Shown one piece after another: positions 26,902 through 27,919 of a stretch of 64,000 nucleotides of DNA. The position numbers were made by a program, and so were the translations under genes. Within the stretch, counting starts at the first letter, position 1, and the number at the start of each line of letters is the position of its first letter. This DNA comes from Ascochyta rabiei (Eukaryota > Ascomycota > Dothideomycetes > Pleosporales > Didymellaceae): contig NC_082413.1 of NCBI RefSeq assembly GCF_004011695.2, positions 620,001-684,000 on the forward strand, read 5' to 3'. A model generated the notes under the pieces. The model ran no database searches, had not been told where the DNA came from, and saw only the letters and a list, made by a program, of their open reading frames with translations.

Positions 26902-27919
26902 ATGAGTTCTCCAAAGAGGCGCATCGAGACCGATGTACGTCAACAGCCATGCACAGCGCGTCAAGATAAGAGCAAGAGCTAATAGGCCTTTTTCTTGCGG
27001 ATGCAGGTCATGAAGTACGCTTCTTACAACTCTCAGCTATGGACAGAGTACTAATGAAGATGTAGGATGTACGTTTCATGCCGACCGCGACTACCCGAAG
27101 GCTCAGCGACTGATGCATGGCAGGCTTATGAGCGACTATGAGGTCACACTGGTCAACGACAACAGTACATCCCTCCTCTCCCGTCCTGTTTAGCACTGCT
27201 GACAATGTGGAAGTGTTCGTTTCCTCTCGAATACGGTCGACGCCACACCGCGATACCACTGACACAGCGCAGGCAAGAGTTCTACGTCAGGTTCAAGGGG
27301 CCTGAGGACAGTACGTCAGCCTCTCACAAATATGCGAATCTCAACTGACTGTACAGCACCCTTCCATGGCGGACTCTGGAAAATCCACGTCGAGCTACCC
27401 GACCAGTACCCTTACAAAAGCCCTAGCATTGGCTTCGTGAACCGCATCTTCCACCCAAACATCGATGAACTGTGAGCGACACACTCTGTTCTCTCAGGCG
27501 TAGCCTCGTCTTGGCAAACTTGGTATAGCTGCTGACCGGCATACAGGTCCGGCTCAGTCTGTCTCGACGTCATCAACCAGACGTGGTCGCCCATGTACGA
27601 TATGATCAACATCTTTGAGGTCTTCATCCCCCAGCTGCTTGCATACCCCAACCCCACCGATCCTCTCAATGGCGAAGCGGCCGCGCTCCTCATGCGAGAA
27701 CCGAAGAGTTACGATGCGAAAGTCAAGGGTAGGTCAAAGCGCGGCTCCAGGCCCGAGACGATGGGGCTGACCAGTGTTGTAGAATATGTTCAGAAGTACG
27801 CTTCCAAAGACATTTCCGAAGACTCCGACAAGGATGATGACGACGATGACGACATGAGCTCAGTCGGCAGCTACGAATCGGGCGACGACGAAGCAGCAGG
27901 CAACATGGACGACATCTAA
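26902..27919 (+). CDS. UBC8: Ubiquitin-conjugating enzyme E2, UBC8/UBE2H type, with micro-exons
   Basis: An E2 that in yeast acts in catabolite degradation of gluconeogenic enzymes (GID/CTLH complex) and can ubiquitinate histones. Nine exons are inferred: 26902-26934, 27007-27014, 27066-27068, 27124-27164, 27214, 27273-27310, 27357-27471, 27547-27728 and 27783-27919; they sum to 558 nt, 185 aa. The product starts MSSPKRRIETDVMKMLMSDY, has HPN at 74-76, active site SGSVCLDVINQTWSP with Cys85, and ends in an Asp/Ser-rich acidic tail, all typical of UBC8. Exons of 8, 3 and 1 nt are needed to rebuild conserved VMK-M-LMSDYEV and NDN-M-QEFYV. Each flanking intron is 49-72 nt with GTACRT-like donors, except GTTCGT after the 1-nt exon. 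The 54-nt last intron is 3n and stopless. The enzyme call is firm; the micro-exons are inference from frame and conservation. Confidence 0.93.
27007..27014 (+). other. UBC8: 8-nt micro-exon of UBC8
   Basis: GTCATGAA is flanked by GATGCAG on the left and GTACGC on the right. It encodes Val-Met and the first two bases of a Lys codon, matching the conserved TDVMK. Confidence 0.85.
27066..27068 (+). other. UBC8: 3-nt micro-exon of UBC8 (GAT)
   Basis: GAT is flanked by GATGTAG and GTACGT. It completes Lys and starts Met across the junctions (AA|GAT|G). The left intron (51 nt) has TACTAAT before its acceptor; the right one (55 nt) has GACTGATG. Skipping it keeps the frame but deletes one residue from helix 1. 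Confidence 0.7.
27214..27214 (+). other. UBC8: Probable 1-nt exon of UBC8 (T)
   Basis: The exon before ends in A and the exon after starts with G; direct joining shifts the frame. A single T at 27214, between acceptor GGAAG and donor GTTCGT, gives A|T|G = Met, the residue recalled as conserved at this position (NDNMQEF). Left intron 49 nt with GCTGAC; right intron 58 nt with ACTGAC. The donor is weak. Confidence 0.55.

Follow-up and report, generated by a model that had tools for sequence, protein, structure and literature searches.

A predicted one-nucleotide exon in the UBC8 gene of Ascochyta rabiei and its likely traces in the gene models of other moulds

The single-nucleotide exon of Arabidopsis APC11, with its 422-nt intronic stretch, was proved by base change and cDNA (PMC4674806). 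According to a second paper (PMC8831610), the one-base exons of APC11 and VPS55 are conserved across land plants, that of APC11 being kept in most of them, and are absent from the reference annotations. Fusarium CYP621A carries what its authors claim to be the second single-nucleotide exon, no earlier one having come from a fungal gene (PMC12940212); there a G forms the middle base of a Gly codon in the Fusarium orthologues, 18 reads span it, and all public transcript models but one are wrong. In mitochondria, two further papers describe a one-base exon between group II introns in rnl of Ophiostoma adjuncti and Ceratocystis (PMC12308204) and a single-nucleotide exon between group I introns in placozoan cox1 (PMC5436844). 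An earlier sequence-only reading of the DNA studied here had named a report in Arabidopsis alone, a remark that the plant VPS55, Fusarium CYP621A and mitochondrial cases have made outdated.

The exon that we predict here is a single T at position 27214, in the UBC8 gene of Ascochyta rabiei. It resembles the APC11 exon in being one base between AG and GT, essential for the frame, missed by annotation and part of a ubiquitin-pathway gene, whereas the APC11 exon was proved by base change and cDNA and that of UBC8 is predicted, fungal and flanked by introns of 49 and 58 nt. It shares the length of one base with the VPS55 exon, which land plants conserve and reference annotations lack; VPS55 is, however, an unrelated gene of another kingdom, for which transcripts with and without the base are documented. 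Like CYP621A, UBC8 is a fungal nuclear gene whose exon phases mismatch unless one base is added, but in UBC8 this base is the T of a Met codon in a core E2 gene, its traces extend over several classes of Pezizomycotina, and the case for it is sequence-based. The mitochondrial rnl and cox1 exons likewise are one base left between neighbouring introns, but those are self-splicing organelle introns while the introns of UBC8 are spliceosomal and nuclear. Stwintrons of filamentous fungi also combine two packed introns with consecutive removal reactions, but they leave no exon base between the introns. We found no earlier report of a single-nucleotide exon in UBC8 in the open-licence literature on such exons, micro-exons and UBC8; in the accessible part of a paper on UBC8 and fungi (PMC4551469) the word "exon" occurs solely inside "exonuclease", and in that of PMC8208691 "single-nucleotide exon" occurs solely in the reference list. 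As far as the open-licence literature shows, the kind of exon is known, and what is new is the gene, the fungal breadth and a companion exon of 3 nt.

Ubc8/UBE2H acts with the GID/CTLH ligase in yeast and human. The window that we analyzed, a stretch of 64 kb, lies within contig C9 (1,944,960 bases) of the 40.9-Mb, 23-contig genome of A. rabiei. Its joined coding sequence at 26902-27919 on the forward strand predicts a Ubc8 of 185 amino acids, encoded by nine coding exons of 33, 8, 3, 41, 1, 38, 115, 182 and 137 nt, so that its first 86 coding bases are divided among five exons (33, 8, 3, 41 and 1 nt). The features of the predicted gene were as follows.

26902..26934, forward strand: exon 1, 33 nt, encoding MSSPKRRIETD
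26935..27006, forward strand: intron 1, 72 nt, GTACGT...CAG, splice score 18.2 bits
27007..27014, forward strand: exon 2, 8 nt, GTCATGAA, just upstream of the 3-nt exon
27015..27065, forward strand: intron 2, 51 nt, 23.3 bits, CTAAT branch
27066..27068, forward strand: predicted exon 3, 3 nt, GAT, completing the Lys and Met of VMKML
27069..27123, forward strand: intron 3, 55 nt, 24.5 bits
27124..27164, forward strand: exon 4, 41 nt, ending AAC A (phase 1)
27165..27213, forward strand: intron 4, 49 nt, GTACAT...GCTGAC...GGAAG, 17.4 bits
27214, forward strand: predicted exon 5, the single nucleotide T, middle base of Met29
27215..27272, forward strand: intron 5, 58 nt, GTTCGT...CACTGAC...GCAG, 20.0 bits
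27273..27310, forward strand: exon 6, 38 nt, starting G CAA GAG TTC
27311..27356, forward strand: intron 6, 46 nt, 25.1 bits, found blind by joining open reading frames
27357..27471, forward strand: exon 7, 115 nt
27472..27546, forward strand: intron 7, 75 nt, 23.4 bits, found blind by joining open reading frames
27547..27728, forward strand: exon 8, 182 nt, GSVCLDV, UQ_con match
27729..27782, forward strand: intron 8, 54 nt, 25.0 bits
27783..27919, forward strand: exon 9, 137 nt, acidic tail and stop

We take the Cys of GSVCLDV in exon 8 to be the active-site Cys. A family-profile search matched the predicted protein to the E2 family UQ_con at 137.4 bits, and its best match was Ubc8/UBE2H, with 241.4 bits against yeast Ubc8 (PDB 8pmq chain E) and 229 bits against human UBE2H, which places it in the E2 family. 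Two further UQ_con matches, at 8472-8855 (C9:628472-628693 and 628748-628855) and at 59074-59205 (C9:679074-679205, E 4e-6), were seen, so the window may hold three E2-type genes. An open reading frame at 25365-25802 on the minus strand may form the first part of a gene for ketopantoate hydroxymethyltransferase, which it resembles. The Rfam scan of the window detected a 5S ribosomal RNA gene at 44683-44802 (RF00001, 85.8 bits) and the C/D-box snoRNA Afu_190 at 32418-32507 (RF01498, 45.5 bits), and nothing at the UBC8 gene.

Exon 4 ends with ...GAC AAC A at 27164 and exon 6 starts with G CAA GAG TTC at 27273, leaving 108 nt between them, exactly as the sequence-only reading had placed these borders. 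That reading had also pointed to the T at 27214, with GGAAG before it and GTTCGT after it, as dividing the stretch into introns of 49 and 58 nt, each with a CTGAC near its 3' end. All of this held; the branch-type A lies 12 and 11 nt from the two 3' ends, and the median in 31 introns of the A. rabiei genome is 12 nt. Its statement that removal of the 108 nt in one piece shifts the frame was also correct, since a stop then appears at codon 69. The pattern AGNGT occurs only once within the 108 nt, as AAG/T/GTTCGT, with precisely one base between AG and GT at 27214. Exon 4 ends on one codon base and exon 6 brings one, so that the codon is one base short without the T; this base restores the frame and completes the codon of a conserved residue, the Met found at this place in yeast Ubc8 (PDB 8pmq chain E, NDSMQEF).

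The evidence from relatives was indirect, coming from protein records read back to DNA. A search for the DNA of relatives gave no match among viral contigs and, among genome contigs, three distant E2-like hits, all in prokaryotic records. We took the best 120 of more than 5,000 matches in each of three protein searches, 272 distinct records altogether, and grouped them by hand into 44 transcript-like, 219 named-genome and 7 outgroup records and 2 plant records, the last not counted. The transcript-like records came from contigs of at most 7,280 bases, one being without a contig, and not all of them need be Pezizomycotina; their unbroken frames of 173-272 amino acids on such short contigs suggest cDNA. 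The genome proteins were assigned to Pezizomycotina by organism names, and Savitreella, Dipodascopsis and Lipomyces (with Saitoella) were assumed to form the outgroup. Among the matches listed, the motif with its Met was intact in 44/44 transcript-like proteins, in line with the Met that the sequence-only reading gives for UBC8 proteins from yeasts to moulds, and in 7/7 outgroup proteins, while only 14/219 genome proteins had it (Fisher p 4e-38 for transcript-like versus genome proteins, uncorrected for relatedness). Because the records are representatives of 90% clusters, in which correct proteins may collapse, 14/219 is not a per-species rate, and Met in these 14 fits either a 1-nt exon or intron loss.

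To rank gene models we used a splice model trained on 31 introns of at most 80 nt, which came from linking open frames across 264 kb of the A. rabiei genome with UBC8 left out; the search admitted introns from 42 nt up and the training introns measured 46-80 nt. A stricter training scan gave 20 introns; a relaxed one gave 41, against 9 and 15 in its controls, and 25 of the 41 found in the A. rabiei genome were 46-60 nt long, with a few of about 108 nt. We scored 47 in-frame, stop-free models, in which one or two introns of at least 40 nt had GT/GC-AG ends, together with two non-standard excisions of 107 nt. The scoring included a family profile of 26 proteins drawn from the 44 transcript-like ones, all with Met at this site. 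The single-T model ranked first of the 49 by family profile (395.6 bits), by summed splice score (37.4, the next being 29.8) and by family plus splice score less 8 bits per intron. Since the profile proteins all carry Met, the 3.8-bit lead of this model in family score over the next one, with Arg, does not count as independent support for Met. It alone among the 47 canonical models had 185 residues and NDNMQEF, which supports the one-nucleotide exon that the sequence-only reading had proposed. When the outer sites were kept and introns as short as 20 nt allowed, seven in-frame middle exons were available, and the T alone adds nothing but Met.

The chance of such an arrangement was estimated by keeping the donor and the 3' end and replacing the interior by dinucleotide shuffles or by genomic sequence, with 20,000 trials each. 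An AG/T/GT split with a splice sum at least as high as observed arose in 3/20,000 shuffles and 6/20,000 genomic interiors; with any base as the exon the counts were 13/20,000 and 20/20,000, and with any exon of 1, 4, 7, 10 or 13 nt they were 69/20,000 and 93/20,000. The two flanking introns had typical branch sites and lengths, which contributed 11.5 and 2.6 bits to the score of intron 4 and 9.9 and 2.3 bits to that of intron 5. The acceptor of intron 5 added 5.3 bits, while intron 4 had a weak donor, GTACAT (3.0 bits), and a weak acceptor, GGAAG (0.3 bits), and the donor of intron 5, GTTCGT (2.4 bits), was weak too. Three of the four splice sites around T27214 are therefore weak, which counts against the single-T reading, though these scores are pessimistic because the training scan admitted GTRNGY donors and YAG acceptors alone. 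A wider scan yielded 1 GTT donor and 5 AAG acceptors, not above the control scans (2-6), and 3 of the 5 AAG acceptors belonged to introns with a second, CAG end further downstream. RNA folding of 27124-27310 indicated no special structure (z = 0.92), and a scan of 27100-27330 for bacterial promoters and terminators found none.

Removal of a single 107-nt intron with non-standard ends (GT...CA or TA...AG) would instead give AAC AGG CAA, with Arg in place of Met. The public A. rabiei Ubc8 (P0002), at 99% identity the nearest named protein among the matches listed, differs from our predicted protein solely by R for M29, so its model likewise keeps one base beyond the 108-nt excision; NDNR[QS]EF also occurs in five further listed genome records (Dothistroma, Baudoinia, Ascodesmis, Terfezia and Monilinia), and the Arg model reaches a family score of 391.8 bits against 395.6. 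We nevertheless consider this reading very improbable, as the 107-nt excision has a splice score of -2.7 or -2.8 against 37.4 for the single T, Met stands at this site in every one of the 44 transcript-like proteins listed, and the Arg model is the outcome to be expected of a spliced aligner that has no means of placing an exon of 1 nt.

There is similarly little to be said for a longer micro-exon or for a single intron that ends inside the next exon, although each of these is in frame. A 5-nt exon from T27214 would give NDNMFRRQEF and came second in the combined ranking (387.6 + 28.6 bits), a 13-nt exon from 27194 is open and would give NDNTLLTMQEF, and the shifted acceptor, with a 113-nt intron scoring 8.8 bits, would give NDNKFYVRF. 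All of them add or drop residues in a stretch that reads NDxM[QS]EF in the listed transcript-like proteins, and the 13-nt exon needs a first intron of 29 nt, which lies below all 31 training introns (46-80 nt) and has no CTRAY. We also weighed an assembly that is one base short, where the true gene would have one ordinary intron. If the assembly had lost one base at the edge of either exon, a single intron would again be in frame, and 108 nt is a possible length, but the same phase mismatch recurs in many independent genomes, including those of Boeremia, Didymella and Stagonosporopsis, which we take to be Didymellaceae, and the 108-nt stretch splits into two introns of the size (46-60 nt) seen in 25 of the 41 genome introns, making this explanation most improbable. 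Scarcely credible, too, is a nested twin intron (stwintron) or recursive splicing that leaves no exon base. The two short introns do lie almost end to end, and filamentous fungi have been described as having stwintrons, but a stwintron has its internal intron within a splice element and leaves nothing in the mRNA, whereas here the frame is lost if all 108 nt go, and one base must stay.

For the single-T exon itself, the faulty gene models of relatives turned out to be a usable record of intron sequence. The 205 listed genome records that lacked the motif fell into a few patterns. NDNSx[QS]EF appeared in 21/219, as if the donor A/GTNN had moved 4 nt to the next GT, NDNKF in 20/219, as if the acceptor had moved 5 nt, and NDNR[QS]EF in 6/219, one base beyond full excision as in A. 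rabiei; of the remainder, 54 read on after NDNS, 31 had Met and then read on, 32 had another residue and 41 had lost the stretch. The Bipolaris maydis protein P0117 had a direct A/G join out of frame (NDNSKSSMSDSR), and the transcript-like P0003, 99.3% alike to it over the C-terminal part, had NDNMQEF. After NDNM, ATG TNN GNN could be read in 28/31 listed records (background pair frequency 0.069), which corresponds to a translated GTNNG donor directly after AT. In the listed NDNS records the next residue permitted G at donor position 5 in 67/75.

Longer inserts among the matches listed were compared with the arrangement of two introns around one T. Inserts that start with Ser and have at least 28 residues fitted A/GT..CTRAY..AG/T/GT..CTRAY..AG/G in 8 of 9 cases, with 0.13 expected from shuffled residues; P0147 (Claviceps africana) was the one misfit. 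The eight had introns of 47-56 and 52-67 nt and came from Parastagonospora nodorum, two Fusarium groups (six records) and A. niger, and with so few source groups they are not eight independent events. All 12 listed S...V inserts fitted a retained first intron, the T and a spliced second intron (2.20 expected), 11 of them with G at donor position 5 too, and 4/8 listed inserts of at least 14 residues that start with Met fitted A/T followed by a retained second intron (0.47 expected). Taking the three readings together, 24/60 listed inserts of at least 14 residues fitted against 2.9 expected, one of the 60 (P0169) being a search-pattern artefact with an intact record. The other 36, which include P0147 and 4/8 of the A/T class, fitted none of the three, and many of them look like partly spliced models that fall outside these readings.

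The Aspergillus niger proteins P0217, with both introns retained, and P0250, with the first removed and the reading then carried on, could be read from one DNA string in two frames over 65 nt, where 500 shuffled controls reached at most 14. The shared string runs from the T onward and starts T-GTATGCAGACTCTGCTTGCCCT, and the two models, each in its own frame, together fixed 23 bases in a row. The model of Didymella heteroderae P0007 has an exon that begins at the T, and its 20-codon reading equals the length of intron 5 of the window; 9/20 residues were identical to that intron read from the T, a level reached in 0/20,000 shuffles. In translation, the first intron closes with STADNVEV in the window and with SVADQVAV in Boeremia, the last codon, V, being G/T/G. 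Reading back the translated introns thus indirectly located the one-base arrangement at the same place in relatives.

Traces of the one-letter exon were present in records from Dothideomycetes, Eurotiomycetes, Sordariomycetes and Leotiomycetes, where the class placement of genera other than Ascochyta and Ascodesmis is assumed. Ascodesmis (Pezizomycetes) had NDNRSEF, Terfezia NDNRQEF and Tuber NDNSEQEF, which points to this phase mismatch in the basal part of Pezizomycotina as well. The exon is probably common to Pezizomycotina, with the 3-nt exon upstream, and these indirect signs indicate that it was likely already in their common ancestor. As for the 3-nt exon GAT at 27066-27068, an enumeration with fixed outer sites and introns of at least 35 nt gave two in-frame middle exons, and GAT was the sole one without a foreign residue. 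An exact skip of this exon, leaving a protein of the VMKLMSD type with a residue missing, was found in 62/219 genome and 0/44 transcript-like proteins among the matches listed, and reading on at this point gave VMKM[YF][VAGDE] in 24 and VMKY[AVEGD] in 12 listed genome records. Many gene models thus either leave GAT out exactly or run on through its donor, and the exon is probably common to the relatives as well. The sequence-only reading was silent both on sharing across Pezizomycotina and on the 3-nt exon.

Judged from DNA and protein records, UBC8 very likely has a one-nucleotide exon at T27214. For the explanation as a whole, in which T27214 is an exon, the flanking introns are removed in two steps and the Ubc8 genes of relatives share the arrangement, we put the probability at about 95%. 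Introns 27165-27213 and 27215-27272 would be removed in two separate splicing steps, and A27164, T27214 and G27273 would together form the Met codon of NDNMQEF. The first acceptor and the second donor lie one base apart, and splicing factors probably could not hold both at the same time, so that the steps would presumably be sequential. Each intron may be recognised across itself, which would suit introns of about 50 nt. If the first intron left first, the product AACAT/GTTCGT would present a donor in an ordinary position with a normal upstream exon; the reverse order would also be workable. Skipping of the T would cause a frameshift with a stop at codon 69. Beyond the observed sequence, frame, model ranking and protein-record patterns, we infer that the introns leave in two successive reactions, whichever goes first, and are recognised by intron definition. 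A bolder version, in which the 1-nt and 3-nt exons were present in the ancestor of all Pezizomycotina and have been kept as a two-step splicing switch that sets the level of Ubc8, seems unlikely to us; skipping of the one base would then lead to the codon 69 stop and turn Ubc8 off, and splicing efficiency would set the E2 level.

Ubc8 is misread at this site in 205/219 named genome records among the matches listed. It is likely that gene finders mostly miss the one-letter exon and that the traces in other moulds are of this same exon. If the prediction is true, it would be among the few single-nucleotide exons known and unusually widespread. As far as the open-licence literature shows, UBC8 would be the second fungal nuclear gene with such an exon, with a spread wider than Fusarium. 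It would further mean that tiny introns can flank an exon of minimum size for very long periods, a point relevant to the working of intron definition.
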